Positions 1,918 to 45,386 of a stretch of 64,000 nt of DNA are shown here, piece by piece. Made by a program: the position numbers and the translations under genes. Source of the DNA: Astropecten irregularis (lineage: Eukaryota; Echinodermata; Asteroidea; Paxillosida; Astropectinidae); the NCBI GenBank assembly GCA_963971285.1, contig OZ020244.1, positions 20,708,001 to 20,772,000 of the forward strand, read 5' to 3'. The notes beneath the pieces are model-generated. The model ran no database searches, had not been told where the DNA came from, and was given only the letters and a program-made list of their open reading frames with translations. How positions within the stretch are numbered: position 1 is the first letter of the stretch; the number at the start of each line of letters is the position of its first letter.

Positions 1918-1926
1918 TACGGAGGC
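1918..1926 (+). repeat. Left target-site duplication of the giant fold-back element
   Basis: TACGGAGGC sits directly outside the left terminus (ACCTAACTGAACC). It is repeated perfectly at 14597-14605 outside the right terminus (GGTTCAGTTAGGT). Nine base pairs, no mismatch. Confidence 0.9.
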
Positions 1927-1938
1927 ACCTAACTGAAC

Positions 1939-2010
1939 CTAGCCGCGGTCTCAGCCGCGGTCTCAGCCGCGGTCTCAGCCGCGGTTTCAGCCGCGGTTTC
2001 AGCCGCGGTT
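1939..2010 (+). repeat. 12-bp tandem repeat at left tip of fold-back element (6 copies)
   Basis: The period is CAGCCGCGGTCTC/T-like, six copies, each centred on the palindrome CCGCGG. The outer copies read TCTC and the inner copies TTTC. The same gradient is mirrored on the right arm. Confidence 0.92.
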
Positions 2011-2110
2011 TAAGAAATGCAGAATCCATGCAGTAAAAGGAGGTACGATTTTGCATATTGAAACAACGATTTTCACCACATAATTTAAAAAATACCGGCC
2101 TTTTTTGCAG

Positions 2111-4779
2111 ATTCTAGTTAATCCATCCTTTGGCCAGATCATATTATGGAGGGGGCAAAATCCGTCCACTAATTATATGTTAATTAGGGGTCTAATTAAG
2201 AGACCGCATTCCCATGCCTCTAACGCGGAATACAGTATAAAGCTGAAAATACTGCTCCGTAAAAACAAAATGTACACCACATACTTTTGAAAATGCTCAT
2301 TTTTATTGCAGATTCCAATCAATCCATCCTCTGGGCAGATCAAATTTTGTAGCAGGAAAAATCGGTCCACTAATTATGTGTTAATTAGGCGTCTAATTAA
2401 GAGACCGCATTCCCATACCTATAACGCGTAATACATATGCGGCTGAAAATACTACTTCGTAAAAACAAAATGTACACCACATACTTTTGAAAATGCTCAT
2501 TTTTATTGCAGATTCCAATCAATCCATCCTCTGGGCAGATCAAATTTTGTAGCAGGAAAAATCGGTCCACTAATTATGTGTTAATTAGGCGTCTAATTAA
2601 GAGACCGCATTCCCATACCTATAACGCGTAATACATATGCGGCTGAAAATACTACTTCGTAAAAACAAAATGTACACCACATACTTTTAAAAATGCTCAT
2701 TTTTATTGCAGATTCCAATCAATCCATCCTCTGGGCAGATCAAATTTTGTAGCAGGAAAAATCGGTCCACTAATTATGTGTTAATTAGGCGTCTAATTAA
2801 GAGACCGCATTCCCATACCTCTAACGCGTAATACAGTATAAGGCTTATTTACTGCTCCGTAAAAACAAAATGTACACCACATACTTTTGAAAATGCTCAT
2901 TTTTATTGCAGATTCCAATCAATCCATCCTCTGGGCAGATCAAATTTTGTAGCAGGAAAAATCGGTCCACTAATTATGTGTTAATTAGGCGTCTAATTAA
3001 GAGACCGCATTCCCATACCTATAACGCGTAATACATATGCGGCTGAAAATACTACTTCGTAAAAACAAAATGTACACCACATACTTTTAAAAATGCTCAT
3101 TTTTATTGCAGATTCCAATCAATCCATCCTCTGGGCAGATCAAATTTTGTAGCAGGAAAAATCGGTCCACTAATTATGTGTTAATTAGGCGTCTAATTAA
3201 GAGACCGCATTCCCATACCTCTAACGCGTAATACAGTATAAGGCTTATTTACTGCTCCGTAAAAACAAAATGTACACCACATACTTTTGAAAATGCTCAT
3301 TTTTATTGCAGATTCCAATCAATCCATCCTCTGGGCAGATCAAATTTTGTAGCAGGAAAAATCAGTCCACTAATTATGTGTTAATTAGGCGTCTAATTAA
3401 GAGACCGCATTCCCATACCTATAACGCGTAATACATATGCGGCTGAAAATACTACTTCGTAAAAACAAAATGTACACCACATACTTTTAAAAATGCTCAT
3501 TTTTATTGCAGATTCCAATCAATCCATCCTCTGGGCAGATCAAATTTTGTAGCAGGAAAAATCGGTCCACTAATTATGTGTTAATTAGGCGTCTAATTAA
3601 GAGACCGCATTCCCATACCTATAACGCGTAATACATATGCGGCTGAAAATACTACTTCGTAAAAACAAAATGTACACCACATACTTTTGAAAATGCTCAT
3701 TTTTATTGCAGATTCCAATCAATCCATCCTCTGGGCAGATCAAATTTTGTAGCAGGAAAAATCGGTCCACTAATTATGTGTTAATTAGGCGTCTAATTAA
3801 GAGACCGCATTCCCATACATCTATAACGCGTAATACATATGCGGCTGGAAATACTGCTTCGTAAAAACAAAATGTACACCACATACTTTTGAAAATACTC
3901 ATTTTTATTCTAGATTCCAATCAATCCATCCTCTGGGCAGATCAAATTTTGTAGCAGGAAAAATCGGTCCACTAATTATGTGTTAATTAGGCGTCTAATT
4001 AAGAGACCGCATTCCCATACCTCTAACGCGTAATACAGTATAAGGCTTATTTACTGCTCCGTAAAAACAAAATGTACACCACATACTTTTGAAAATGCTC
4101 ATTTTTATTGCAGATTCCAATCAATCCATCCTCTGGGCAGATCAAATTTTGTAGCAGGAAAAATCAGTCCACTAATTATGTGTTAATTAGGCGTCTAATT
4201 AAGAGACCGCATTCCCATACCTATAACGCGTAATACATATGCGGCTGAAAATACTACTTCGTAAAAACAAAATGTACACCACATACTTTTAAAAATGCTC
4301 ATTTTTATTGCAGATTCCAATCAATCCATCCTCTGGGCAGATCAAATTTTGTAGCAGGAAAAATCGGTCCACTAATTATGTGTTAATTAGGCGTCTAATT
4401 AAGAGACCGCATTCCCATACCTATAACGCGTAATACATATGCGGCTGAAAATACTACTTCGTAAAAACAATATGGACACCACATACTTTTGAAAATGCTC
4501 ATTTTTATTGCAGATTCCAATCAATCAATCCTCTGGGCAGATCAAATTTTGTAGCAGGAAAAATCGGTCCACTAATTATGTGTTAATTAGGCGTCTAATT
4601 AAGAGACCGCATTCCCATACATCTATAACGCGTAATACATATGCGGCTGGAAATACTGCTTCGTAAAAACAAAATGTACACCACATACTTTTGAAAATAC
4701 TCATTTTTATTCTAGATTCCAATCAATCCATCCTCTGGGCAGATCAAATTTTGTAGCTGGCAAAATTGGTCCACTAATT
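2111..4779 (+). repeat. 200-bp tandem array, left arm (about 13 units plus a partial)
   Basis: The landmark GATTCCAATC recurs at 2311, 2511, 2711, 2911, 3111, 3311, 3511, 3711, 3913, 4113, 4313, 4513 and 4715, a strict 200-bp period with two 202-bp units. The outermost unit (about 2111-2310) is a diverged type. At least three variants alternate: one with 'CATATGCGGCTGAAAATACTA', one with 'CAGTATAAGGCTTATTTACTG' and an inner 'GGCTGGAAATACTGC' type. Every unit has the hairpin TTAATTAGGCGTCTAATTAA. Confidence 0.95.
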
Positions 4780-4849
4780 TGTATATAACTGCTACGAAAA
4801 AACAAAATAAATGCACTGCTGGGGTGGTATTAATGTATTAATGTATTAA

Positions 4850-5174
4850 AGGTAGTATCATACTTCGGTCAGAAACCAAAACAGAAATGTTCATAGATTT
4901 ACGTATAACTGCATACAGGGTAAGAAGATGGTGCTGGTAGAAATATACCGTTAAAATACTTCCGCCTGAAATTGTGTAGGCCTAGAATACTTATCCAGAA
5001 ATTAGTCAAACAAAGACCGAAAACAGTTTTGATCTCGGCGTAATATCCAAACCATTCTTTATGTTTTATAAGAAAAATTGAGTCGGGTTTTTACTATTTT
5101 CGCGTGACTCAATTTTTCACAGGTTTCTATATTCCATGTACATGTTTGACCTTAACCAGTCATGTATTATACCT
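4850..5174. mobile_element. TTAA-type MITE (AGGTAGTATCA family) inside the fold-back element
   Basis: Flanked by TTAA at 4846-4849 and 5175-5178. The left end AGGTAGTATCATACTTCGG is inverted at the right end, which reads (minus strand) AGGTATAATACATGACTGG. Same family as 15163-15528, 30331-30653, 46771-47246 and 49747-50112. The TTAA target suggests mobilisation by a piggyBac- or Kolobok-type transposase (inference). Confidence 0.75.
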
Positions 5175-5694
5175 TTAAACTGGTGAAAAATAATACAATC
5201 AACACTGCCATCGCACCCATGTTACGCTGTATGATTTGTTCCTCCCCTTTATACTTGTGTCTCAATCATGCAAATTATTTTGAGTGTGGTATCTCAATAT
5301 TCTATGGGCTGGCTATGGCTAAAAAAGTCCGCATTTCGTGCGTACGAGCCGGTACTTTATGGACGACCCCCCCCCTACATTATCGCAACGTAGAAAAACA
5401 ACCGTTTGGGCGTTCTCCCGTTCTAGCTGCGCCTGTGCTTATCGGTCTTTGAATTTACCACAGTCTATGGGAGAGGGGCTTGTTAGAAAAACAGCCGTTT
5501 TAGCGTTCTCCTATACAAAAAATTGGAAATATCTCAAAAAAACAAATCTTTAAAATATATCTCGAAAAAAAAAATGTTTCTAAAAATAGTAACAATGTTT
5601 CCAAAAATAGATACAAGAAGGATAATTGATCCCAAAAATATATCACGAAAAAACAAATTTTGAAAAATATATCTCGAAAAAACAAATCTGTAAA

Positions 5695-5802
5695 TTACGG
5701 AAGCGCATTCCTGCCAACTTGAATAATTTTTTAAGTCGTTCAAAACGAGATAATTATGTCGTTTGAACGAGATAATAATTGGCAGAAATGCGCTTCCGTA
5801 GT
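5695..5802. mobile_element. Small palindromic element inside the fold-back centre
   Basis: TTACGGAAGCGCATTCCTGC at the left end is inverted at the right end as GCAGAAATGCGCTTCCGTA. The core has two copies of CGTT(C/T)..ACGAGATAAT. The surrounding 5500-5830 is very AT-rich with repeated 'ATATCTCGAAAAAACAAAT'. Confidence 0.6.
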
Positions 5803-6433
5803 AAATATTTATCTCGAAAAACATTTCGAAATAATTTATACTTCACTTTTTCAGAATATATACTTGATGGCACTACGGGGCTTTCGTAATGACTGTGTAT
5901 GCGGGGATTTTAACACAGTATCGGCATCTTTACGAAAGTTAATTTGCTGTTCACATTTCACAAGATAAAGAAGGTTAACAACAAAAATAATTATTTATTC
6001 GTTTTATTCCCCAGGTCACCGATGCATGTGTATGTAGTACCCGCCTTCTCACCGCACACCTCGCTCGGTGGCCTGACCAGTTCCCACCCGGGGCATCGGG
6101 CTGAAAGTGGGCTCGATGTGCCCACATCCTGACGCCAGTGAACCCCACTCCATCTTCCCTTACGTTTACTTCGAACGTTTCGTTAACAAGTATTTATTTT
6201 CGATTCTTGTTTTGTGGATCTTCTGGTAGTGGCTGCTCGTGCTACATGAGATGGTGTATACCTCCCCTCCCGACCGAGATCATTGATCTATTTTATGCTT
6301 GTACACATATTTTTTCCCTCAATGTTTTCTTGCATAATGTTCATATGCAACGTTGTTATCGTTGTGTTGTATAATGTATGTAACGTTTATTTTGGCCCTC
6401 CAACACATAAAGGTTGGGTATTAACCTTACCCA

Positions 6434-6640
6434 ATCCAAATTTTACCCAGTTGTGATGGTAGAAACATATCATTAAAATTTGTCTGCTGGAAGTGCTGTA
6501 TTTTTTCAAGAAAGTAGTAAAACCAATGACCCAAAACAATTTTGATCTTTTAAAAGGTATAAAATAACGGTGGAAAGATTTTAAATACTGTGGCCGTTTT
6601 CACTGTTTTCTCAAAAAGTGGGCCATATAATGCCTAAAAA
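6434..6640. mobile_element. Partial copy of the TTAA MITE family
   Basis: Shares 'TTTTGATCTTTTAAAAG', 'AATACTGTGGCCGTTTTCACTGTTTTCTC' in two overlapping parts, and 'AAAAAGTGGGC' with the full copy at 49747-50112. The outer end with AGGTAGTATCA is missing. Confidence 0.5.
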
Positions 6641-7233
6641 AAATAGGATATAAGTAATTAATTTTTACCATTAATGATTATACGCAGAGAGAAGTTGCTC
6701 TTTATAACATCCTTTGCATGCTCTGATAGACGTCATTGGTAAGGTAGATTGAATAGTGTTCTACAGAAGGGGTTCCTGGTGTCTTACAGTGGATAGGTGT
6801 ATGGATGTTCTAACTTTAGTAAGATGGAGGTTCTTTGATGATCTGGTGTCGTAGTTATGAATATTCGTGTTTTTTTATAAAGAGGGATTAAATTTTTAAG
6901 GGCAAAGTCTTTTTTTCAAATTGATACATGTAAGAGCACACAAATGATATTTATACAGATCAAATATAAAATAGACAAGATGCGAAATTTAACAAATAGT
7001 AATGCAGAGTGTTCTCGATATCTAGATCCTATGGTGTTCCATTTGTGCCGTTAACGCGTAGCGGGTTTTTTTGCCGTCGCATTATTTTTTTGCGGCGCCT
7101 TTTTTTTTTTGGCGGCGCCTTTTGTTTCCGTCGCCTTTTTTTTTTGCGGCGCCTTTTTTTTTTGCGGCGCCTTTTTTTTCCCGTCGCATTATTTTGGGAT
7201 TATATGCTGAGCCCTTTGTTTGTATCCTTTTAT

Positions 7234-7258
7234 GGGGGGGGGGGGGGGGGGGGGGGGG
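7234..7258 (+). repeat. Poly-G run (25 G)
   Basis: 25 consecutive G. A C-run (8039-8050) lies near the mirrored position in the same nested element. The length in the assembly may be unreliable. Confidence 0.9.
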
Positions 7259-7466
7259 CTTAAAACATTATTTACAAAACGCGTTACATTAACATATCTG
7301 GTTGATTTATATTTTCTGCAAGGCATTGCTAAAAACAAGGCAGAGGAACACTGCCCCTGTTCTTCTCAGTTGGAATGTTAATTAACTGATTTCCACACTT
7401 AATTATGTTAGTTCCGCTGGTTTCTTTCCCCCTGTGACCTGTGTCCGCCGCATGTGGGTTTAATTA

Positions 7467-7962
7467 GCCCCTTTCACACCGGGTCTACTTAGAGTTGCGT
7501 GGTGTTGCGTATCTTGTACGTCGAAATAAGGTTGCGTACTCTAGGTGAGCCTGCGTAAAATGTGTGTGCGACGGCGTATGGTTGCGTACCCAGTACAGAG
7601 GCACCGCACACCTATACCAGCATAATACTATTTGCGTACAGGCGCGTAGGTTGCGTATAACAGACGTAGGGTAGCGTACTATTGCGTAGGCATGGCGTAC
7701 AGAAGCGTAGTGTTGCGTAGACTTGCGTTAAAACTGCGTATAACGTCTGGTGTCTAGTGCTCTGCGCCACGTACGCGAACAAATTAAACATGTTTAAGTT
7801 TTTGCGTACATCTCGCGTACTCCTGCGTACTCCTGCGTACTCTGCGTATTGTTATGTAAGCCAGCGTAGAGTAGCGTAGGAACAGCGTACGTAGGGCAGC
7901 GTATAGGCAGCGTACACTCCCTACGCTACGCAACTGTACGTAAGGCCCGGTGTGAAAGGGCC
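7467..7962. mobile_element. MITE with TIR GGCCCTTTCACACCGGG and a GCGTA-rich core
   Basis: Left end GCCCCTTTCACACCGGG, right end its reverse complement (CCCGGTGTGAAAGGGCC) with one mismatch. The core contains 24 copies of GCGTA, all on the plus strand, in irregular steps of about 9-25 bp. No target duplication was clear. It sits inside the 7030-8310 element, which sits inside the giant element. Confidence 0.78.
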
Positions 7963-8339
7963 AGTTATGGAGGGGCGGGCACATTTCTTTACCTTCGTTT
8001 ATACCACGACCCTCTCCCAACCCTACCTTCTATCTCAACCCCCCCCCCCCACTACAAACTACAAACTGTATGCCGCTTGAAGTTTTTCTGGGCTCGATAA
8101 CACTGATATAAGCTTCTTTTCCCAATTTTTAGCACTATCATGGAGGTAGAAATTGAAATTCTAGAGGACTCCTTATAACTATTTATATAACCGTCAAAAA
8201 AATGCGCCGCAAAAAAAAAGGCGACGGAAAAAAAAAATCCGGCGCAAAAAAAAAAATGCGACGGCAAAAAAAAAAAAGCGACGCGTTAACGGCACAAATG
8301 GAACACCATAAGATCCGTTTATCACTCTTAAGGATTTCT

Positions 8340-8828
8340 TTTGGACAATGAACAATTTATCAAGAAGGGTTTTGAGGGTGTTTCCCCAAGCAAGTATGCC
8401 ATATTGTAGATAGGGTAATTATAATGTATTAAAAATGGAAAGTAGGATACAAGATGGCGCATAATATTTAAGTTTTCTAAGAATGCCAAGGTTCCGAGCT
8501 GCAAGTGTAAGAACTTTCGGACAGTGATTTTTCCACGTTAGCTTGTCATCAATAATGACACCCAGGAAGGTACAGGACTCAACCCTTTTAATATCAATCA
8601 TTATTGTTAAATTTAATCTTGTGTCATCTGCAAAAAGGACAAAAGTCAGAAGTTTTGAAGAATTACAAGTATCATTAATATAAATAAGAAATAAGATGGG
8701 CCCAAGGATTGATCCCTGAGGAACACCACAATTAAGTGATTTCTAGACTTTTTATTTTGCCACACAACTATTTCTTAAGTAATCTTTAAACCAGTCAAGT
8801 GCTGTACCTCTAATATCATATAAATGTA
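8340..8828 (-). pseudogene. LINE reverse-transcriptase fragment (Jockey/CR1-like), decayed
   Basis: Reading the minus strand gives, in order, a GTALDWFKDYL-like segment, two in-frame stops, GVPQGSILGPILF, an FADDT catalytic box, then FLGVIIDDKLTWK. These are the RT thumb and palm motifs of non-LTR retrotransposons of the Jockey/CR1/L2 type. The roughly 100 residues usually found between FADDT and FLGV are missing, so this is an internally deleted relic. The plus-strand right boundary is a MITE half at 8829. Confidence 0.8.
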
Positions 8829-9025
8829 AGATCAAAAATAAAAGAAAAAGGACTTAAGAAATACTGTGGCCGTTTTTCACTGTTTTCTCAAAAAGTGTGC
8901 ACCTTATGTGACTGAAATTTTCACAGATGACTGTTACTGTATCCGTCTTGATATTTTTGCCCATGAATCTATATATCTTTGATAAAAACCAAAGTATGAA
9001 AAACTATGGTATCATCTTTAAAGGT
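8829..9025. mobile_element. Half copy of the TTAA MITE, inserted in the LINE relic
   Basis: GATCAAAAATAAAAG through CAAAGTATGAAAAACTATGGTATCATC followed by TTTAA matches, in reverse orientation, the left half of 49747-50112. It separates two parts of one LINE reading frame (8340-8828 and 9063-9330). Confidence 0.65.
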
Positions 9026-9062
9026 TGGACAATAAAAGGAGCTACATCTTTGATCAGTTATG

Positions 9063-9330
9063 TATATTATCAAATTCATCATGTCCAGAACTTTTCTTGT
9101 TAGGAAGTTTATTAATACAATCAAGGAGTTCTTCCTGAGTAATTGGGCTTATGAATAAGGAATTGGGAAAGTCAGCATTGATATATTTAATTGGATCGGA
9201 TGTACTATATGAGGAACTTGTGGAGGCAGGATTTATTCCAATGTCTACAAAATGCTGGTTGAAATGCTCAGCAATTTTATGTGGGTCATTTACATTTATA
9301 TCATCGCCATCCTGAGCCTGTGTTCCTTAA
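9063..9330 (-). pseudogene. LINE RT N-terminal region fragment (same relic as 8340-8828)
   Basis: The minus strand encodes a stretch with HKIAEHFNQHFVDIG, then FISPITQEELLDCI and KLPNKKSSGHDE. This is the usual pre-RT linker and RT box 1 pattern (F..I...E....I..L..KKSSG.D) of Jockey/CR1-type LINEs. It continues the relic at 8340-8828 across the MITE half. No start codon or endonuclease domain was found. Confidence 0.72.
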
Positions 9331-9520
9331 CAGTCACAGTAAGTTGTTTTCGCAATTTTTAACACCATTTTATTAATGTATAAAAAAATTATAAAAAAGC
9401 TGTTTACAAAGACGACATGCTCATCGATGCATTTCTATTAATGTTTTTGTTTGAATTTCAAGATTTGCGTGTATTTTATAACCTTTATACTTAATGTAAA
9501 CTGTATACTGTAAAGGAAAA

Positions 9521-12500
9521 TGATTAGTGGATCGATTTTTCCTGCTACAAAATTTGATCTGCCCAGAGGATGGATTGATTGGAATCTAGAATAAAAATGA
9601 GTATTTTCAAAAGTATGTGGTGTACATTTTGTTTTTACGAAGCAGTATTTCCAGCCGCATATGTATTACGCGTTATAGATGTATGGGAATGCGGTCTCTT
9701 AATTAGACGCCTAATTAACACATAATTAGTGGACCGATTTTTCCTGCTACAAAATTTGATCTGCCCAGAGGATGGATTGATTGGAATCTGCAATAAAAAT
9801 GAGCATTTTTAAAAGTATGTGGTGTACATTTTGTTTTTACGGAGCAGTAAATAAGCCTTATACTGTATTACGCGTTAGAGGTATGGGAATGCGGTCTCTT
9901 AATTAGACGCCTAATTAACACATAATTAGTGGACCGATTTTTCCTGCTACAAAATTTGATCTGCCCAGAGGATGGATTGATTGGAATCTAGAATAAAAAT
10001 GAGTATTTTCAAAAGTATGTGGTGTACATTTTGTTTTTACGAAGCAGTATTTCCAGCCGCATATGTATTACGCGTTATAGGTATGGGAATGCGGTCTCTT
10101 AATTAGACGCCTAATTAACACATAATTAGTGGACCGATTTTTCCTGCTACAAAATTTGATCTGCCCAGAGGATGGATTGATTGGAATCTGCAATAAAAAT
10201 GAGCATTTTCAAAAGTATGTGGTGTACATTTTGTTTTTACGGAGCAGTAAATAAGCCTTATACTGTATTACGCGTTAGAGGTATGGGAATGCGGTCTCTT
10301 AATTAGACGCCTAATTAACACATAATTAGTGGACCGATTTTTCCTGCTACAAAATTTGATCTGCCCAGAGGATGGATTGATTGGAATCTGCAATAAAAAT
10401 GAGCATTTTCAAAAGTATGTGGTGTACATTTTGTTTTTACGAAGTAGTATTTTCAGCCGCATATGTATTACGCGTTATAGGTATGGGAATGCGGTCTCTT
10501 AATTAGACGCCTAATTAACACATAATTAGTGGACCGATTTTTCCTGCTACAAAATTTGATCTGCCCAGAGGATGGATTGATTGGAATCTGCAATAAAAAT
10601 GAGCATTTTCAAAAGTATGTGGTGTACATTTTGTTTTTACGGAGCAGTAAATAAGCCTTATACTGTATTACGTGTTAGAGGTATGGGAATGCGGTCTCTT
10701 AATTAGACGCCTAATTAACACATAATTAGTGGACCGATTTTTCCTGCTACAAAATTTGATCTGCCCAGAGGATGGATTGATTGGAATCTGCAATAAAAAT
10801 GAGCATTTTTAAAAGTATGTGGTGTACATTTTGTTTTTACGAAGTAGTATTTTCAGCCGCATATGTATTACGCGTTATAGGTATGGGAATGCGGTCTCTT
10901 AATTAGACGCCTAATTAACACATAATTAGTGGACCGATTTTTCCTGCTACAAAATTTGATCTGCCCAGAGGATGGATTGATTGGAATCTGCAATAAAAAT
11001 GAGCATTTTCAAAAGTATGTGGTGTACATTTTGTTTTTACGAAGTAGTATTTTCAGCCGCATATGTATTACGCGTTATAGGTATGGGAATGCGGTCTCTT
11101 AATTAGACGCCTAATTAACACATAATTAGTGGACCGATTTTTCCTGCTACAAAATTTGATCTGCCCAGAGGATGGATTGATTGGAATCTGCAATAAAAAT
11201 GAGCATTTTCAAAAGTATGTGGTGTACATTTTGTTTTTACGAAGTAGTATTTTCAGCCGCATATGTATTACGCGTTATAGGTATGGGAATGCGGTCTCTT
11301 AATTAGACGCCTAATTAACACATAATTAGTGGACCGATTTTTCCTGCTACAAAATTTGATCTGCCCAGAGGATGGATTGATTGGAATCTGCAATAAAAAT
11401 GAGCATTTTCAAAAGTATGTGGTGTACATTTTGTTTTTACGAAGTAGTATTTTCAGCCGCATATGTATTACGCGTTATAGGTATGGGAATGCGGTCTCTT
11501 AATTAGACGCCTAATTAACACATAATTAGTGGACCGATTTTTCCTGCTACAAAATTTGATCTGCCCAGAGGATGGATTGATTGGAATCTGCAATAAAAAT
11601 GAGCATTTTCAAAAGTATGTGGTGTACATTTTGTTTTTACGGAGCAGTAAATAAGCCTTATACTGTATTACGCGTTAGAGGTATGGGAATGCGGTCTCTT
11701 AATTAGACGCCTAATTAACACATAATTAGTGGACCGATTTTTCCTGCTACAAAATTTGATCTGCCCAGAGGATGGATTGATTGGAATCTGCAATAAAAAT
11801 GAGCATTTTTAAAAGTATGTGGTGTACATTTTGTTTTTACGAAGTAGTATTTTCAGCCGCATATGTATTACGCGTTATAGGTATGGGAATGCGGTCTCTT
11901 AATTAGACGCCTAATTAACACATAATTAGTGGACCGATTTTTCCTGCTACAAAATTTGATCTGCCCAGAGGATGGATTGATTGGAATCTGCAATAAAAAT
12001 GAGCATTTTCAAAAGTATGTGGTGTACATTTTGTTTTTACGGAGCAGTAAATAAGCCTTATACTGTATTACGCGTTAGAGGTATGGGAATGCGGTCTCTT
12101 AATTAGACGCCTAATTAACACATAATTAGTGGACCGATTTTTCCTGCTACAAAATTTGATCTGCCCAGAGGATGGATTGATTGGAATCTGCAATAAAAAT
12201 GAGCATTTTTAAAAGTATGTGGTGTACATTTTGTTTTTACGAAGTAGTATTTTCAGCCGCATATGTATTACGCGTTATAGGTATGGGAATGCGGTCTCTT
12301 AATTAGACGCCTAATTAACACATAATTAGTGGACCGATTTTTCCTGCTACAAAATTTGATCTGCCCAGAGGATGGATTGATTGGAATCTGCAATAAAAAT
12401 GAGCATTTTCAAAAGTATGTGGTGTACATTTTGTTTTTACGGAGCAGTAAATAAGCCTTATACTGTATTACGCGTTAGAGGTATGGGAATGCGGTCTCTT

Positions 12501-14389
12501 AATTAGACGCCTAATTAACACATAATTAGTGGACCGATTTTTCCTGCTACAAAATTTGATCTGCCCAGAGGATGGATTGATTGGAATCTGCAATAAAAAT
12601 GAGCATTTTTAAAAGTATGTGGTGTACATTTTGTTTTTACGAAGTAGTATTTTCAGCCGCATATGTATTACGCGTTATAGGTATGGGAATGCGGTCTCTT
12701 AATTAGACGCCTAATTAACACATAATTAGTGGACCGATTTTTCCTGCTACAAAATTTGATCTGCCCAGAGGATGGATTGATTGGAATCTGCAATAAAAAT
12801 GAGCATTTTCAAAAGTATGTGGTGTACATTTTGTTTTTACGGAGCAGTAAATAAGCCTTATACTGTATTACGCGTTAGAGGTATGGGAATGCGGTCTCTT
12901 AATTAGACGCCTAATTAACACATAATTAGTGGACCGATTTTTCCTGCTACAAAATTTGATCTGCCCAGAGGATGGATTGATTGGAATCTGCAATAAAAAT
13001 GAGCATTTTTAAAAGTATGTGGTGTACATTTTGTTTTTACGAAGTAGTATTTTCAGCCGCATATGTATTACGCGTTATAGGTATGGGAATGCGGTCTCTT
13101 AATTAGACGCCTAATTAACACATAATTAGTGGACCGATTTTTCCTGCTACAAAATTTGATCTGCCCAGAGGATGGATTGATTGGAATCTGCAATAAAAAT
13201 GAGCATTTTCAAAAGTATGTGGTGTACATTTTGTTTTTACGAAGTAGTATTTTCAGCCGCATATGTATTACGCGTTAGAGGTATGGGAATGCGGTCTCTT
13301 AATTAGACGCCTAATTAACACATAATTAGTGGACCGATTTTTCCTGCTACAAAATTTGATCTGCCCAGAGGATGGATTGATTGGAATCTGCAATAAAAAT
13401 GAGCATTTTCAAAAGTATGTGGTGTACATTTTGTTTTTATGAAGTAGTATTTTCAGCCGCATATGTATTACGCGTTATAGGTATGGGAATGCGGTCTCTT
13501 AATTAGACGCCTAATTAACACATAATTAGTGGACCGATTTTTCCTGCTACAAAATTTGATCTGCCCAGAGGATGGATTGATTGGAATCTGCAATAAAAAT
13601 GAGCATTTTCAAAAGTATGTGGTGTACATTTTGTTTTTACGGAGCAGTAAATAAGCCTTATACTGTATTACGCGTTAGAGGTATGGGAATGCGGTCTCTT
13701 AATTAGACGCCTAATTAACACATAATTAGTGGACCGATTTTTCCTGCTACAAAATTTGATCTGCCCAGAGGATGGATTGATTGGAATCTGCAATAAAAAT
13801 GAGCATTTTCAAAAGTATGTGGTGTACATTTTGTTTTTACGAAGTAGTATTTTCAGCCGCATATGTATTACGCGTTATAGGTATGGGAATGCGGTCTCTT
13901 AATTAGACGCCTAATTAACACATAATTAGTGGACCGATTTTTCCTGCTACAAAATTTGATCTGCCCAGAGGATGGATTGATTGGAATCTGCAATAAAAAT
14001 GAGCATTTTCAAAAGTATGTGGTGTACATTTTGTTTTTACGAAGTAGTATTTTCAGCCGCATATGTATTACGCGTTATAGGTATGGGAATGCGGTCTCTT
14101 AATTAGACGCCTAATTAACACATAATTAGTGGACCGATTTTTCCTGCTACAAAATTTGATCTGCCCAGAGGATGGATTGATTGGAATCTGCAATAAAAAT
14201 GAGCATTTTCAAAAGTATGTGGTGTACATTTTGTTTTTACGGAGCAGTATTTTCAGCTTTATACTGTATTCCGCGTTAGAGGCATGGGAATGCGGTCTCT
14301 TAATTAGACCCCTAATTAACATATAATTAGTGGACGGATTTTGCCCCCTCCATAATATGATCTGACCAAAGGATGGATTAACTAGAATC
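9521..14389 (-). repeat. 200-bp tandem array, right arm (about 24 units plus a partial)
   Basis: Reverse-complement copies of the left-arm unit. The landmark GATTGGAATC ends at 9586, 9788 and then every 200 bp from 9988 to 14188; the outermost diverged unit ends near 14389. Between about 11640 and 13040 two variant types alternate strictly, giving a 400-bp higher-order period. The outermost unit carries the same private variants as the outermost left unit. Unit number may be affected by assembly collapse. Confidence 0.95.
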
Positions 14390-14490
14390 TGCAAAAAAGG
14401 CCGGTATTTTTTAAATTATGTGGTGAAAATCGTTGTTTCAATATGCAAAATCGTACCTCCTTTTACTGCATGGATTCTGCATTTCTTAAA

Positions 14491-14582
14491 CCGCGGCTGA
14501 AACCGCGGCTGAAACCGCGGCTGAGACCGCGGCTGAGACCGCGGCTGAGACCGCGGCTGAGACCGCGGCTGAGACCGCGGCT
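14491..14582 (-). repeat. 12-bp tandem repeat at right tip of fold-back element (8 copies)
   Basis: Mirror of 1939-2010: eight CCGCGG-centred copies, inner ones CTGAAA-spaced and outer ones CTGAGA-spaced. Confidence 0.92.
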
Positions 14583-14596
14583 AGGTTCAGTTAGGT

Positions 14597-14605
14597 TACG
14601 GAGGC
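14597..14605 (+). repeat. Right target-site duplication of the giant fold-back element
   Basis: TACGGAGGC, identical to 1918-1926. Confidence 0.9.
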
Positions 14606-25684: not shown

Positions 25685-27572
25685 GGTCTTGTACTGAAGT
25701 TTTTAGGTTCAGGAATTCTAAGCTTATCCGACCGACAGTCCTCCACAAAAACACAGAAATGACCTTTTATATGGACGCTATATCACCTTGCATGATTGGT
25801 GTATCTTAGAGAACCTTGTACGCACTGACCAATCAGATATCATTTAACGTGGAGTGTGTCTATCAACGATATATGCGACTGGTACCATGTAGCTATTGGT
25901 TCATTTTTCAAACCCATTACATTGGATACCAGCGTAAAAATGGGCCTTCCTTTTGGGCTTCCCTAGAAATTTGTCTACGGATGACCAAAAATGCCATAAC
26001 ATTCGCGGCATTCTATTTTAGCGTTGGTGTACGTGTAAAGTTGGGAAATCAGGAGTATTAGTCAATTATTATTAAAGGGGTTTTATATTAATCCTTGCAT
26101 GGTCACTGTTAGTAAAAGTTAAAACGCAAAGGCTCGTCCAACAAAACCTCAATGGGGCGCACTATTATATTATAGTATCCACGGGAGGAACAGTATCCGA
26201 TGCATGAGTAACAAATAAATGGGCTGTTTGTTGCCAAAATGATTAAAGAATGTATCATCGTTCACTGATTCGAGTCATGGTCCATTGGGGCTAATGTAAG
26301 ATAAAAAAAAACAAGCCAAACTAGTGATAACAAATTAATGGTCACGAAAACAAAACTTAAAGTCTCTTAATTGACTCTCTTCTATGAAATGCTCGGTGTC
26401 AACATAAAAGACATTTTCAATTGGTACATTGACGCCACAACCACACGTGTGCCTAGCTCCATATGCATTATTTATTATACATCATGTACCTGGAGATAAA
26501 TGGGGCACGTGGTACACTGTTTAAACTGATTTCCTATTATTAGTTCCGTTCAGTTTAGATGATCGCAATTGAATGAATTGATGATGAGAAAGATATGACA
26601 AATCCACGTGAATTCCAAAGGAAGTGCCTTGTTTACCAAGGAACAAGCTAGCACGGGAATGCCCGTTTAATACTTATTAAAAGATGCTTAAAAATCAATG
26701 TTGTTCACGAACTTCAGACGTACAACCTATTGACAATCTCTCTGAAGATTTCATCAAGGGGGCGCTGTTGACCAAGAGCGACATTTAGAATGGCAAATAT
26801 ATAATCATGTAATTGTTTGAAGATAAAACCGTAAACAAAATGTTGATAAAGAAACAAGTGATTTTAGAATAAACAGGCGGGGAAGATGTTTCTACGTTGT
26901 TTTTTTTATAAACCATTATCATCCACTCATGGCGCGGTCATCTTTGTCGAATATCTAATTAAGAACACCGAGCTTTATTAGTAGACAGAGTAACATAATC
27001 ATACAGTCATGATTGTAGACCATGTTTTGTAATACTGAGCTTTGAATCCCTGGCAGTGTAGGACCATGTACGTCACACTAGAATGTTCCATTGTGGGCGA
27101 AAGTTCCGGACTGGAAACTGGAAGGCCTACGTATGGCCTACAAACAGAAACTGTAATCTCAAAGTGATAGCATGCAGCACTATACAATGAAACTGCTGTG
27201 GTAGGATTATGTACTGCAATCCAACTCCTAGAAAATGTTTGGGGAAAGAGGGACAACTGTCCAGCTCTGTTATTTTTATACATAACCTCATAATTATGTC
27301 TAGTAGGCTCGTGACCCTCGCGTTATTACAATGTGCGAACGTTTTTTCGCCGAGGCTGCAAATACATGATACATTCGTTATGTAGCGATCAGACTACATG
27401 GTGTATGCCCTAGTGTGCCGAGCATTTGAAAACACTGGGAAGTTATCAGTTAGCGTGTACTATAATTATGTTGTCATCAAGAGTTGTGGGCACGCTGGCA
27501 CGGCTAATCAGGATTGGTGAGAAGCTGCAACCTTTGCTTGGTAATGACGGTTCCTAACATCAAGTCTTCAAC
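25685..27572. other. Intergenic stretch between divergent genes; nothing recognised
   Basis: It lies between the start of the minus-strand synaptophysin-family gene and the plus-strand LRR-TIR gene, so it must hold both promoters. No CpG-rich block, repeat family or coding exon stands out. Confidence 0.5.
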
Positions 27573-29480
27573 ATGTCTTCTAGCTGTATCGAGCACCTAC
27601 TAGTTTTTGTGAGCACCATCATTGGCTGTTTGGTCCAGATTGCTGGTACCATACCAGTGTGCCAAATTTGTACTTGTGAAAACAATTTCTTCCCACCTTA
27701 CGTAGATGTTGAGTGCAGTGTGAGCAGTCCCGATTTCTTCTCGAATTTTCAAAGTGTGACTGACTTTCCCTCGGAGAGTTACCAGCTTGACATTCGCGGT
27801 TACACGGCGTTTTCCAGTAACCACCAGGTCGCAATACCCGTCGACGCATTCGCATCTTTTGCAATGTCGCCACCCTGCTGCATTGGTTTCTATGGATTCT
27901 TTAATCTCGCCCCGATGCATAAAGACACGTTACGGGGACTGGAACTACAAAAGGTAAACTTTGCTGGATTGGGACTGGATAGTTTGCCAATAGAAGCCTT
28001 AAAGGTGCAGAGTAAATCGTTGTTGGCCATAAGTGTGTTTGATGTGTTGACGGTTGATGGAACGGAGATAGATCCTCCGTACTTTAACTCTTTTGAGGCT
28101 CTTCAATCCATCACTATAGAGAAAACGCCACTCATGTCTCTTCGCAACTACACCTTCTACAATCTACCGTCTCTCCTGCGAGTGAAAATCTCAGAAGGCA
28201 GCTTCAGGGAGGACGGATTTCCACGGTACATCTTCCATGGCGTCCCAAAGCTTGAATCCTTGCAGCTGATTCGTAATGGTTTCAGTGCGATGCCCTCCGT
28301 GCTGTCCGACCTTGGGACTCTTAAAAGCCTGGACCTCTCTTGCAACGAGATTAAAAACATCGATGCGACGCTCCTAGAGAACTTGTCCCAGCTGAGAAAA
28401 TTAGATCTAAACAGTAACCTCATTGAGGTAGTGAATAGAGATGCCGTTAAGGCATTGAGAAACATGAGCTTCCTGGAGGTTCTGGATGTGGGTGGAGACA
28501 ATCCATTTCGTTGCACGTGTGATCTACTGCCGTTTATCCACTGGTTGCAAAAAGCATCCATACACATTGGTAAAAGGAGCAATTTTAAAAAGCTATCGTG
28601 TAAAACCCCTTCGGATCTTTCCGGGGCACCACTTTTGTCCCCCGTTCTTGCCTCTTACTTGGAATCCAACTGCAGCGAGGAAGTCACCACCAACTACCCA
28701 TCATCTTCCGTTACCACTGAGCATATGGGAGGGTCTCGTCCCAACTTCTCTCCACCATATCGAATTATTGTGGCCATTGTAGCTGTTTCAGTCATACTGA
28801 GTTTTTTTGGTGTGGTTGGTACTTGCGTGCTCCACAGGAAACTGAAGAGGAGGTGGGTGGGCCTATTCAGACGTTTCGACAACGACTTTGCTGTCCAAGA
28901 ACAAAATTCTGACGTTGTAGCAGATCATTACAAGTACGATGCGTACGTGTGCCACCACGATGATGCAGCAGAGTTTGTCGCCAATAAGATGATACCTGAG
29001 CTGGAACAAGGGCTGGATCATTTCAAGCTGTGCCTGTCTTTCAGAGACTTTCTCGTCGGTGCGGATAACCTGGACAATGTGACGACCGCAATGGAGTCTA
29101 GTAGAGTTGTCATCATCCTCTTAGACGGCAACTTCATCTCAAACGGCCGGTGCATGCTGGAGCTGAACATGGCGTGTTCTAGGATGCTCGATACTGACGT
29201 AGTCGCTTCTCGAGGCGCAGGGGAGCCCCGACTACCGAACACTGGGAGTGGTCTCATGCTCGTGCTGCTTGAGGCTCTGCCGGTGGATGCTCTGCCCGTC
29301 ACTCTGAGAGTGCTTCAGGGAAAGATAACTTGCTTAGAGTGGTCTCTGCAAGATACTGATAGATGCTGGCAACAACTCAAATTGTCCTTGCTGGAAATAA
29401 GAGCCAAACCACCAGAGAACGACGACGAAAATGATATGTTTCAACCACTGATTGCATCGTGTTCTATAGACTCATGCTAA
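27573..29480 (+). CDS. LRR-TM-TIR receptor, Toll-like, copy 1 (intronless, 635 aa)
   Basis: Type I membrane receptor of the Toll-like class, expected to recognise ligands through LRRs and signal through TIR adaptors; ligand and location are unknown. Hydrophobic signal peptide 1-25; cysteine-rich N-terminal cap 30-48; poorly conserved LRRs about 118-310 (clearest at 248-300, with LKSLDLSCNEI and LRKLDLNSNLI); LRR C-terminal cap 311-367 with the NPFRCTCDLLPFIHWL motif; transmembrane helix about 396-420; basic juxtamembrane HRKLKRRWVGLFRRF; TIR 453-605. TIR box 1 is YDAYVCHHDD, box 2 is LCLSFRDFLVG and box 3 is CLEW. In box 2 the proline of the usual RDxxPG loop is Val. The ectodomain (about 370 aa) is much shorter than a classical TLR. 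A single uninterrupted frame, as in many deuterostome TLR genes. AATAAA at 29607. Paralogue at 35082-36902. Confidence 0.93.
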   Translation: MSSSCIEHLLVFVSTIIGCLVQIAGTIPVCQICTCENNFFPPYVDVECSVSSPDFFSNFQSVTDFPSESYQLDIRGYTAFSSNHQVAIPVDAFASFAMSPPCCIGFYGFFNLAPMHKDTLRGLELQKVNFAGLGLDSLPIEALKVQSKSLLAISVFDVLTVDGTEIDPPYFNSFEALQSITIEKTPLMSLRNYTFYNLPSLLRVKISEGSFREDGFPRYIFHGVPKLESLQLIRNGFSAMPSVLSDLGTLKSLDLSCNEIKNIDATLLENLSQLRKLDLNSNLIEVVNRDAVKALRNMSFLEVLDVGGDNPFRCTCDLLPFIHWLQKASIHIGKRSNFKKLSCKTPSDLSGAPLLSPVLASYLESNCSEEVTTNYPSSSVTTEHMGGSRPNFSPPYRIIVAIVAVSVILSFFGVVGTCVLHRKLKRRWVGLFRRFDNDFAVQEQNSDVVADHYKYDAYVCHHDDAAEFVANKMIPELEQGLDHFKLCLSFRDFLVGADNLDNVTTAMESSRVVIILLDGNFISNGRCMLELNMACSRMLDTDVVASRGAGEPRLPNTGSGLMLVLLEALPVDALPVTLRVLQGKITCLEWSLQDTDRCWQQLKLSLLEIRAKPPENDDENDMFQPLIASCSIDSC

Positions 29481-35050: not shown

Positions 35051-35080
35051 ATGGTTTTGTCTTACTCTTCTCTTATACAG
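35051..35080 (+). promoter_or_regulatory. Candidate splice acceptor just before LRR-TIR copy 2 start
   Basis: A pyrimidine-rich tract (TTTTGTCTTACTCTTCTCTT) then ATACAG ends at 35080, directly before AG-TGGAAAAC-ATG. This suggests an intron in the 5' UTR with an intronless coding part. Confidence 0.45.
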
Positions 35081-35081
35081 A

Positions 35082-36902
35082 GTGGAAAACATGGCAAAAT
35101 GCCGACAGTTTGGTCATGTACTGCTGCATCTGATGTTCCTTTGGCAGTCACTTTGCTTGGCAGTTTACGCCAATGACTGGCCGCCGATTTGTGACCTCGC
35201 CGAGTGTTCATGCTCCTCTTCCGGATTCATTTCTACCTATTGTAAGGCTGGTAAAAACGGCTTAAACTTTTCTATCTTCCAAAACTTCAGCTACGTTTAC
35301 GGTGGAGGATGGAACCTCATTTTAGACTCCAAGTCTGAGAACTATTCATATCCAGTGAATCCTCTAGACATACCAAAAAATGTGTTTCCGTCCTTGGCTG
35401 GTACATGGCTACGGATATTCACATTGCAAATTAGACAGGTTGACTTAATTTCAGTCGAGAATGGGGCATTTGCTGGACTGCCACTGACGAGGCTAAAGTT
35501 TGCGTCTACACGGATGACCCGTCTACCACTGGAGAGTTTCTCGAATCACACTGATTCACTGAGAGAAATCGTTCTCGACTCGGTCCAACAGAGAGACGGC
35601 ACGCCGATAGAACCACCGAGAATCCACTCTTTCGAAGCTGTTGAAACTGTCCGTATTAACAACGTCTCCTTGCCATCGCCTATTCTTCCCGATCTCACTT
35701 TATACAGGTTACCGTCACTACGCAGTGTCTTCATTACGCTCATGCCGAGATTGGTTGGCATATCGCCAAAGGCATTTCAGGAGGTCCCGAATTTGGAGAT
35801 GTTGATTATCACCGACTGCGGCTTGCAGACAGTACCGGCCGCTTTGCTATCAGCGCTCGACAATTTAACTTGGCTGGACCTTTCAAGGAACCGCATTAAT
35901 GTTGTGGACGCTGCTGGTATCGAATCACTGGAGGGACTGTCTGCCATTCAAATATTGAAGATGGAGAGAAATCCTTTCATCTGCGATTGCGAACAACTAC
36001 CGTTTCTTGGATGGTTTCGTGAGTATGTTGCCAGTTCAAGAATATGCGATCGCTCTGCATGGTCTTCGGAGTGTTACTACTATTGCGACCTTCCAGAACG
36101 TCTTCGAGACAAATCACTAGTGGACTTGGATCTTGCCATTTTCTTAGAGCTGAACTGTACTGAAGACAGCACAGTAAAACCCTTTAAGTATGCCACGATT
36201 GATTTCGTGGAGTCACCCACGGTCGCAAAAATATCCGCTTCAATAAGTGTGGCCCTTGTTTTACTTGGCATCGCAGTCATAGTGGTAGCTGTGGTAATGA
36301 ACAGGAAGATTAAGATGAAATGGATTGGGTTGTTTCGACGGTATGGTCGGGACAATGAAGGCAACGGTCGCGTGGAAGAGTGGACGTATGATGCTTATCT
36401 CTGCCATCATGACGACGTGGAGAACTTCATCGCCCGAGAGATGATCCCACGCCTTGAAGAAGAGCCCAATAACTTTCGGCTGTGCCTGTCTTTCAGAGAC
36501 TTCGTCGTCGGAGCAAACAAACTAGACAATGTGGCGACTGCCATGGAGACCAGTCGACTAACCATCGTCCTGCTGGACGGCAACTTCATCACCAGCGGCC
36601 AGTGCATGCTGGAGCTGAACATGGCGTGTTCTCGGATGATGGAGGCTGGCGTAGACGCTGTTCGAGCAGCAGGGGAAGCCCGCCTTCCAGCAGACGGTAC
36701 TGGTATCCTGCTCGTGCTGCTTGACGCACTTCCGATGGACGCCCTGCCAGCCTCTTTGACAGCGCTTCGAGACAAGATCACGTGTCTTGAGTGGAGGGCT
36801 GAGGACGAGGAGAGATGTTGGCGACAACTCATAGACTCCATTCAAGCAGTCGCAAGGCCAAATCAAATTCAGCAGTTTGAGGTTGAAGAACATATATTAT
36901 AA
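35082..36902 (+). CDS. LRR-TM-TIR receptor, Toll-like, copy 2 (intronless, 606 aa)
   Basis: Paralogue of 27573-29480 with the same order of parts: signal peptide 1-30; Cys-rich cap 37-54; LRR region about 105-297 (clearest at 238-290, LTWLDLSRNRI); LRR C-terminal cap about 298-360 with NPFICDCEQLPFLGWF; transmembrane helix about 382-406; basic juxtamembrane NRKIKMKWIGLFRRY; TIR 436-585. TIR boxes: YDAYLCHHDD, LCLSFRDFVVG, CLEW. The box 2 proline is Val here as well. TIR and juxtamembrane parts are strongly alike between the two copies (long shared runs such as GQ/RCMLELNMACSRM), whereas the ectodomains have diverged. The first ATG is at 35082; the second, four codons in, would also keep the signal peptide. 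A splice-acceptor-like site lies just upstream. Function in immune recognition is inferred from the family. Confidence 0.92.
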   Translation: MENMAKCRQFGHVLLHLMFLWQSLCLAVYANDWPPICDLAECSCSSSGFISTYCKAGKNGLNFSIFQNFSYVYGGGWNLILDSKSENYSYPVNPLDIPKNVFPSLAGTWLRIFTLQIRQVDLISVENGAFAGLPLTRLKFASTRMTRLPLESFSNHTDSLREIVLDSVQQRDGTPIEPPRIHSFEAVETVRINNVSLPSPILPDLTLYRLPSLRSVFITLMPRLVGISPKAFQEVPNLEMLIITDCGLQTVPAALLSALDNLTWLDLSRNRINVVDAAGIESLEGLSAIQILKMERNPFICDCEQLPFLGWFREYVASSRICDRSAWSSECYYYCDLPERLRDKSLVDLDLAIFLELNCTEDSTVKPFKYATIDFVESPTVAKISASISVALVLLGIAVIVVAVVMNRKIKMKWIGLFRRYGRDNEGNGRVEEWTYDAYLCHHDDVENFIAREMIPRLEEEPNNFRLCLSFRDFVVGANKLDNVATAMETSRLTIVLLDGNFITSGQCMLELNMACSRMMEAGVDAVRAAGEARLPADGTGILLVLLDALPMDALPASLTALRDKITCLEWRAEDEERCWRQLIDSIQAVARPNQIQQFEVEEHIL

Positions 36903-44200: not shown

Positions 44201-45386
44201 TTCGACCTGTGCAAATTGTTCTTTACGAAGGACGTCATTATTTCGCTTCCTATCACCATTAATAGCAAGACTGAAGTTGTGTCGACATTTTAATTTCTTA
44301 AAAGAACGTAACTTTACCTTCTTGCTGGATCCAATAAAAAGTGATGCGCTCTACTCCCCCTTTTTGTATTTAGACATTTTTGAATACTTGGATACAAAAA
44401 TTACATTGGAATGTGTGTCGTTTTGCTAATGGCTGCGATTAATATTGTAATTTTGGTAATTGTGGACAAGTGGTTCCCAAAACTATAAAAGAAAGGACAA
44501 GTGGTTTCTAACTTGGTTATAACGGGAAATGAAAGCAATTCTTTATAGCTTATACTGCTCCTAAACGATACTTTTCAGCAAAAGTTTAAGAGTCCTTAAA
44601 AGTAGTATAAACCCTCCAATATTTCAGTGAAAAAGTCCAATGATTTAGAAACCACTTGTCCTTTATAGTTTTGGGAACCACTTGTCCACAGTTACCGTAA
44701 TTGTCATCCTTATTACATGTATTTTGATCACAGGATCAACAACGGCATCGGACGGCCAGCAGCTTACATCACCAACGAGGCATCATCACCGCCCTGCACC
44801 TACCCAACCCCCTTACCCCGGCCAACCATACCCACCAAACCAACAATACCCATCACAGCAATATCCCCTTCAGCAATACCCATCACATCAATACCAACCC
44901 CCGCAGTACCCCTCGAACTACCCTCCAAATTACCCAACGCAGCCCTACCCGCACCCAGTGCCCAGGATGGTCAATCAGAACTACCCAGATCCTACCATCG
45001 CCATGCCGAATTTCTCGGCACCCCCGCCTCCGTACTCGGCGACGTCCACTGATTATCTTCAGGGGGCCGGGGCACCACCTCCGCTGCCGGACAAGCACGG
45101 AGCCAGTTCTACCGACAGCCAACGAGAGGAGTACCCGGACAGCCCCGATGCATGCTACCCACCGCCCCTACCGTCGCCGAGGTACCAACCACCGCCTCCC
45201 TCTTCGCCAAGGTTTGCTCCAGTGCCAGCACCACGGTCATCTAGAGCACCGCCATTAATGGACAAGCAGAGGGCTGCTGCTACGGCGGCTCAAGAATTCC
45301 CAGAAGTATGTCCTCCGCCTACCTCTCGAAGAGGACCCCCATCGGCACCTCCAGAGGAGGACAACAGCTATCCCAGGAAGATGTAA
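38218..45386 (+). CDS. Shisa-family transmembrane adaptor (complete, four exons, 393 aa)
   Basis: Single-pass protein with an N-terminal Shisa cysteine domain. Family members act at the ER or plasma membrane on receptor trafficking (Wnt/FGF receptors, AMPA receptors); the role here is not known. Exons (plus): 38218-38344, 39724-39883, 43802-44043 and 44734-45386. Phases join and the total is 394 codons with the stop. Signal peptide 1-31. Shisa domain 45-95: GEYC...FQC...YCCG...YCC, cysteines 48, 64, 76, 77, 85, 86. The cysteine that usually follows CCGT is Glu80 here. Membrane helix about 100-117, running into a cysteine cluster (CCCCCSCC). The cytoplasmic tail is very rich in Pro, Tyr and Gln (exon 4, repeated QQYP units) with a PPPY motif at 274-277 that could bind WW domains, plus several PxxP stretches. 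The start is the downstream ATG pair; the ATG at 38214 runs into a stop. The subfamily is not assigned. Confidence 0.9.
38660..39013 (+). CDS. Unassigned 117-aa open frame in Shisa intron 1
   Basis: Open from ATG to TAA. Composition is normal for protein (LYELTSPLSYFHKWLPND and similar), but there is no motif I recognise and no membrane segment or splice context. It lies inside an intron on the same strand. It may be a chance frame, an alternative exon extension or a decayed transposon fragment. Confidence 0.15.
   Translation: MAIFCSNTVKLTSFQREIHYNNIGFVIVNRKLETETKRQERLYELTSPLSYFHKWLPNDTVKSIDLLRNNERPHVYAWTCHSNKTLFDIRILKNNLGPFSKELSAIDGHDFGSRDEM
42464..42990 (+). repeat. GACGTC-rich degenerate array in Shisa intron 2
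   Basis: Eight GACGTC, mostly as GAGACGTC(T/G), plus variants such as AAACGTCTCGGAGAC and GATGTCTC within about 530 bp. The spacing is irregular. It resembles the motif-array cores of the palindromic MITEs, but I found no clear terminal inverted repeats. Confidence 0.6.

Follow-up and report, generated by a model that had tools for sequence, protein, structure and literature searches.

Introduction

The FB elements of Drosophila and the TU elements of sea urchins have long inverted arms with short tandem repeats. Arms built of longer units have been described for two other elements. Tetris, a foldback element of Drosophila virilis, has arm units of ~220 bp and 8-10-bp target duplications, and its units alone make up 39 contigs, though fibre fluorescence in situ hybridisation saw no units-only array (PMC4079207). 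Rehavkus-1_TC of Tribolium (9.5 kb) has inverted termini with mostly five and eight 164-bp satellite units (PMC10218199). Rehavkus elements make 9-bp duplications, and reports of them, from arthropods and annelids, describe a transposase with a PHD finger (PMC10218199, PMC6446971). Duplications of the Mutator superfamily span 8-11 bp, with 9 bp typical (PMC6446971), and for arthropod Mutator-like elements the longest terminal repeat given is 1,193 bp and the longest elements are ~10 kb (PMC13359780). One view holds that there may be a limit to how long cut-and-paste elements in nature can be (PMC6431247). Here we analyse the element at positions 1927-14596 of a 64,000-nucleotide stretch of the starfish Astropecten irregularis (assembly GCA_963971285.1, contig OZ020244.1, 20,708,001 to 20,772,000, forward strand), referred to as the window. 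The element belongs to a dispersed family, family A, whose arms are built largely of a 200-bp satellite-type unit, and is probably a DNA transposon of the foldback type, non-autonomous and moved by cut-and-paste, on which a transposase would act in trans.

The window element and its dispersed copies

The window element, designated copy C1a, is 12,670 bp long. It is bracketed by the target-site duplication TACGGAGGC (1918..1926 and 14597..14605, both plus strand), identified by matches in the window and by comparison of copies; the window holds four matches to this sequence, against 0.14 expected from shuffles. The terminus ACCTAACTGAACCT (1927..1940, plus strand) and its inverted copy at the right end (14583..14596, minus strand) were located by the terminus search across the genome. 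Tandem-repeat analysis revealed a 12-bp repeat inside each terminus, with six AGCCGCGGTCTC-type units on the left (1941..2012, plus strand) and eight on the right (14487..14582, minus strand). Adjoining it is a flanking domain of ~86 bp, delimited by copy comparison, which occurs once per arm (2013..2098, plus strand; 14401..14486, minus strand). The remainder of each arm is an array of the 200-bp unit with 95% matches by tandem-repeat analysis, comprising 13.4 units on the left, the outermost diverged and the innermost partial (about 2099..4779, plus strand), and 24.4 inverted units on the right (about 9523..14400, minus strand). The tandem-repeat analysis itself places the arrays at 2101-4779 and 9523-14398. 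Measured in this way, the arms are ~2.85 and ~5.07 kb long, with a single difference between them over the first 285 bp inward of the 12-bp repeat. The centre (4780..9522, plus strand) lacks a long frame, and no stop-to-stop frame of 120 aa or more was present anywhere in C1a.

We searched the 475.7-Mb assembly (168 contigs) with the 22-bp terminus, allowing up to two mismatches, and obtained 19 places, 16 exact and three with two mismatches. All 16 exact termini fell into eight inverted pairs, while the reversed-pattern control gave none. The resulting eight loci of family A are spread over five contigs and measure 12,670 (C1a), 1,292 (C1b), 16,346 (C8), 12,713 (C9a), 13,727 (C9b), 8,934 (C10a), 14,751 (C10b) and 1,531 bp (C19). 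A perfect 9-bp duplication, different in sequence each time, flanks six of them; given random equal bases, the chance of 9-bp matches at six or more of eight copies is ~1e-31. The flanks are unmirrored, with 9-21 of 60 bp identical across the eight copies. Every one of the 16 arms contains the flanking domain, and 200-bp units were present in all arms, one of them interrupted by an insertion; one C9b arm holds an extra 3.7-kb insertion with 18-bp inverted ends. Frame listing and copy comparison indicated that the centre is common to six copies, its main segments being 92-99% identical to those of C1a in the other five. It occurs in either orientation and, in C8 and C10a, carries insertions or has lost parts; C1b and C19 lack it, their arms being joined head to head. 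Family A thus has the features of the foldback structural class, namely long inverted arms containing tandem repeats in all eight copies, and dispersed copies of which seven have 8- or 9-bp duplications.

An earlier note on the window had read the sequence as a foldback-type, possibly non-autonomous element with inverted termini, a perfect 9-bp duplication, arms of about 2.85 and 5.08 kb made of 12-bp and 200-bp repeats, and a centre without a recognisable transposase, and had suggested looking for further copies by a terminus search. All of these points are borne out by the structure of C1a and by the eight pairs recovered.

Two sets of terminus-like sites were considered as copies and rejected. 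The 26 one-mismatch sites of a relaxed terminus pattern were not above the reversed control (34 with at most one mismatch), so we take them to be mostly chance matches. The three sites with two mismatches, candidate autonomous members of family A, are embedded ~500 bp deep in a hAT-like element of 4.9 kb whose ends are different and whose duplications apparently span 6 bp. At these sites, ACCTGACTGAATCTAGCCGCGG matches the foldback terminus at 20 of 22 positions and, 10 bp on, CTAGGTTCAGTT is the exact reverse complement of 12 terminus bases.

Arrays of the 200-bp unit

The number of 200-bp units per arm ranges from ~1.5 to ~27 across family A, and arms reach ~5.7 kb. To compare units, 202 whole monomers were parsed from 15 of the 16 arms, 163 of them classed as middle; parsing ended at the first irregular spacing, which left one C9b arm with none and dropped some inner units of other arms. 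Middle units differed from one another at a mean of 9.1 alignment columns. Outermost units differed from middle units at 25.8 columns and from each other at only 8.6, while innermost units were not clearly more diverged (10.7). Diverged outermost units and similar middles would be expected if unequal exchange homogenised the central units of an array but left those at its edge untouched. For C1a and C8, middle units of opposite arms were closer to each other (6.2 and 7.4 columns) than to those of other copies (8.4 and 9.2), whereas for C10b and C9a they were not (10.2 and 10.3 versus 9.9 and 9.9). Over the first ~285 bp, arms of the same copy had 0-10 differences, compared with a mean of 8.9 between copies (seven copies; C9b, with its interrupted arm, was left out).

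Searched with one unit, the genome yielded 236 matches; the 15 candidate regions were all scored, and every match listed (150 of 236) is inside the eight family A copies. The same was true, among the matches listed, for a query consisting of terminus, flanking domain and first unit (232 matches). Among these listed matches, the 200-bp repeat appears confined to the family A element in this assembly, and the satellite therefore appears to be the element's own arm.

A sister family and its 40.6-kb member

The right flank of C10b is the end of another foldback, family B. Its terminus reads ACCAAACTGAAGGTAGCC and its 12-bp repeat AGCCGCAAACTC; the flanking domain resembles that of family A, and the units of the array measure 211-212 bp. 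The A and B flanking domains are identical at 55 of 69 aligned columns (score 45; 300 shuffles gave a mean of 21.9 and a maximum of 39), and the units at 131 of 176 (score 82; shuffle mean 34.7 and maximum 59 in 300, reverse-complement control 36). A combined terminus pattern with up to three mismatches matched 44 places, 16 from family A and 28 B-type or weaker, versus one in the control. Where C10b adjoins the B element (C10:22524506-22545011), a single base separates its 8-bp duplication from the B terminus.

Among six family B pairs examined, two have a 9-bp duplication (C19:12953627-12962782 and C11:12148789-12156624) and one an 8-bp duplication (C17:14090905-14131472). The flanks of the pair at C15:2099839-2110246 are perfectly mirrored over 30 bases on each side, as in an inverted duplication or an assembly artefact. 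B-type units also occur at no fewer than four places without a terminus from the B search nearby (C11:8.31 Mb, C11:8.35 Mb, C12:9.49 Mb and C14:4.17 Mb). The B-unit search is a lower bound, with 522 matches, 38 of 132 candidates scored and the unit's own source place not among the matches listed.

The C17 element is 40,568 bp long, ~6.0 kb of which were examined letter by letter. Its left array ends near 14110840 (the final 1.8 kb were examined), and right-arm units on the opposite strand run, among the matches listed, from 14123144 to 14130425. The minus strand between the arms carries a 1,688-aa open frame. The last 645 aa of the predicted protein match a UCH deubiquitinase (PF00443, 5e-27) and a Ulp1/C48 protease (PF02902, 3e-11). 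An inner stretch of 146 aa matched no Pfam family and no solved structure; its Cys/His pattern resembles, we presume, that of WRKY/FLYWCH-type fingers. No transposase model matched in these 791 aa (last 645 plus inner 146) of the frame.

Both stretches recur on C27 in an open frame of 1,698 aa, with 69% and 50% identity and ~1,506 nt apart (1,503 in C17); that the frames have stayed open despite such divergence suggests selection. They also recur on C9, where the first stretch contains a stop, and the protease part, interrupted by stop codons, is present again in the C11 copy that has the 9-bp duplication (87% identity over the best stretch). No relative of the protein was confirmed in viral contigs, and a literature search found no Ulp1-bearing Mutator foldback, no satellite-bearing Mutator-like element in echinoderms and no transposase with UCH and Ulp1; for TU elements it brought up nothing beyond the Tetris paper (PMC4079207). 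We also noted a cluster of many UCH/Ulp1 protein fragments, along with several Mutator-type matches, at ~19-22 Mb on C11.

Mobilisation and alternative explanations

Given the length of the duplications and the structural plan, the enzyme that moves family A is probably of Mutator/Rehavkus type. For these groups the expected duplication is 9 bp (8-11), and family A has 9 bp in six copies, 8 bp in one and none in one. The duplications are best read, we infer, as the outcome of cut-and-paste insertion with a staggered cut of 9 bp. Every arm has the terminus, the 12-bp repeat and the flanking domain; these conserved outer ends are likely enzyme sites, to which a transposase provided in trans would bind. 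The transposase would excise the element and reinsert it with a 9-bp stagger, as Mutator/Rehavkus enzymes do. The arrays would travel with the element and, while inside it, gain or lose units through unequal exchange or replication slippage, so accounting for both the range in unit number and the divergence of the outermost units. As the least certain step, the enzyme would come from a relative of family B, whose 40.6-kb member encodes the 1,688-aa protein. No transposase was found in the A copies by inspection of frames, among genome matches to PF10551 and PF20700, or by comparison of six of the 26 centre frames with Pfam.

That the genome contains matches to Mutator-type models (33 for PF10551, 23 for PF20700) is in keeping with such an enzyme. 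Several results weigh against this scheme. None of the 33 and none of the 23 matches is inside the eight A copies or the six examined B pairs. The C10b duplication is only 8 bp and C19 is without one, as are three of the six B pairs (the C10 pair beside C10b, C15 and C113). The A and B termini differ at five of 22 positions, so mobilisation across families stays hypothetical. Cut-and-paste is deduced from the duplications. Finally, evening-out between the arms of one copy is unsupported, the true pairing being among two of 24 re-pairings that reach the observed value (four copies with both arms parsed).

Mirrored arms could also arise as an assembly artefact, if a read had been folded back, or if a satellite array had been duplicated locally in inverted orientation; either would give the mirrored flanks observed for the C15 pair of family B. 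For family A, the 16 exact termini in eight pairs at eight loci on five contigs argue strongly against this explanation, as do the six perfect 9-bp duplications, since artefacts make none. Because the flanks are unmirrored and the duplications differ, an artefact is very unlikely for family A, and we give the explanation as a whole next to no credence. There is also a slim chance that a chromosomal satellite was caught in a transposon, leaving the array as a passenger. The length and arrangement of the 200-bp unit are satellite-like, and B-type units without a terminus nearby are consistent with such capture. Against it, no A-unit match among those listed falls outside the eight copies, the arms of every copy have the same flanking domain ahead of the units, and family B carries a diverged unit at the equivalent position. 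The earlier suggestion that the element is a route by which satellite DNA spreads has support in part only: the A-unit matches listed stay inside the eight copies, while B units also occur away from termini. Family A might instead be moved by a transposase from outside the Mutator superfamily, such as one of the hAT, P or Merlin type, the foldback form being convergent. Galileo, for instance, is foldback-like. It belongs to the P superfamily (PMC4079207), and the 4.9-kb hAT-like element (PF05699, 6e-6) holds its foldback-terminus-like sequence with an inverted partial copy adjoining. We consider this unlikely, as the ends of the hAT-like element are of a different sequence, CAGAGTTGCCAACA, and its duplications are apparently 6 bp long in the two copies, of three, for which both ends were read, whereas family A makes 9-bp ones, a length that fits Mutator/Rehavkus best in the table of PMC6446971.

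What the 1,688-aa protein does is a separate question. We tentatively entertain, as a rather doubtful possibility, that these elements belong to a lineage of giant transposons with satellite arms. Its autonomous members, the 40.6-kb C17 element among them, would encode a single fused protein of ~1,690 aa in which a DNA-binding/transposase part is joined to a deubiquitinase and to a SUMO-type protease, Ulp1. The arrays would then be functional, for example as many transposase-binding sites, and the proteases would free the transposase, or silencing proteins of the host, of ubiquitin or SUMO. That the protein is captured cargo and not the mobilising enzyme has a chance only a little short of even. 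UCH and Ulp1 domains also occur in host genes, and the stretches examined match no transposase model. Capture is harder to reconcile with the reappearance of the protease part, with stops, in a second B copy that has its own 9-bp duplication, and with the relative on C27, in which the order, the approximate spacing and the open frame are retained; moreover, the ~500 aa between the two examined stretches could hold a transposase core. For the window element itself, we retain the non-autonomous foldback transposon as the reading that best accounts for the termini and duplications.

The centre of C1a and neighbouring features

The centre contains an older nested element (7030..8310, strand unassigned) with inverted ends TATGGTGTTCCATTTGTGCCGTTAACGCGT and an apparent 6-bp duplication, AGATCC. 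It was matched in all six centre-bearing copies and so was probably present before family A spread. Among the 26 centre frames of 60 aa or more, the six put to Pfam included a reverse transcriptase remnant (8422..8742, minus strand; RVT_1, 1e-6, 29.1 bits, just below the 29.6 cut-off) and a weak match to DUF3678 (0.024, below the cut-off). Frames of 110 aa or more across all A copies were judged by eye only. A small insertion-like stretch at ~7466-7966 has ends like CCCTTTCACACCGGG and 27 GCGTA motifs, counting both strands, in 480 bp.

Outside the element, TACGGAGGC also occurs at 1806-1814, 112 bp to the left, and at 45026-45034 on the minus strand; we see no meaning in either site. Further along the window, open frames of 640 aa (27558-29480) and 616 aa (35052-36902) encode leucine-rich repeats and a TIR domain. 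These are Toll-like receptor genes, apparently intronless in that part, and solved structures include relatives of the 616-aa frame.

Discussion

Among the matches listed, a satellite-type repeat is present in an assembled genome only as the arms of a mobile element. With the repeat apparently confined in this way, it can be traced how arrays of differing length, each at a known insertion site, descended from a common ancestor. If the family B protein is the mobilising enzyme, it would give a cut-and-paste transposon with its own ubiquitin and SUMO protease domains, and the use of these pathways by DNA transposons against host silencing would become testable.

The short tandem repeats in the arms of FB and TU find a counterpart in the 12-bp repeat of family A; by description, family A differs from both in that its arms also carry 200-bp satellite units. 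We matched family A to no named family; the comparisons with Tetris, Rehavkus, FB and TU are by description. The sizes reached here, 16 kb in family A and 40 kb in family B, bear on the view that the length of natural cut-and-paste elements may be restricted (PMC6431247).

The closest known elements, judged by their descriptions, are Tetris and Rehavkus-1_TC. With Tetris, family A shares long inverted arms, a flanking domain, a tandem array (~220-bp units in Tetris), a non-coding middle, duplications (8-10 bp in Tetris), a non-autonomous nature and a variable number of units (PMC4079207). Of the Tetris plan of flanking domain, array, inner domain and middle, family A shows the flanking domain, array and middle, but its arms begin with the 12-bp array and a separate inner domain was not seen. 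Tetris arms, however, are at most 1,735 bp long with few units, compared with up to ~5.7 kb and ~27 units here; the Tetris flanking domain (up to 866 bp) is outermost, whereas family A has the 12-bp array at the very end, outside a flanking domain of 86 bp; and Tetris units form contigs by themselves, whereas A units, among the matches listed, do not occur outside the element (PMC4079207). Rehavkus resembles family A in its 9-bp duplications and in the satellite units of its inverted termini, and differs in the reported PHD-finger transposase, none having been found in family A (PMC10218199, PMC6446971). Arthropod Mutator-like elements have 8-11-bp duplications and sometimes long termini, but their longest terminal repeats and longest elements fall short of the arms of up to ~5.7 kb and of the 40.6-kb sister element found here (PMC13359780, PMC6446971). 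The earlier note overstated the case in calling satellite arms unusual for a foldback, as satellite-length units in inverted arms are already known from Tetris (PMC4079207) and Rehavkus-1_TC (PMC10218199). The present elements differ in scale, in combining a 12-bp with a 200-bp repeat, in an A unit that seems confined to the element and, in the sister family, in a protease-bearing giant.

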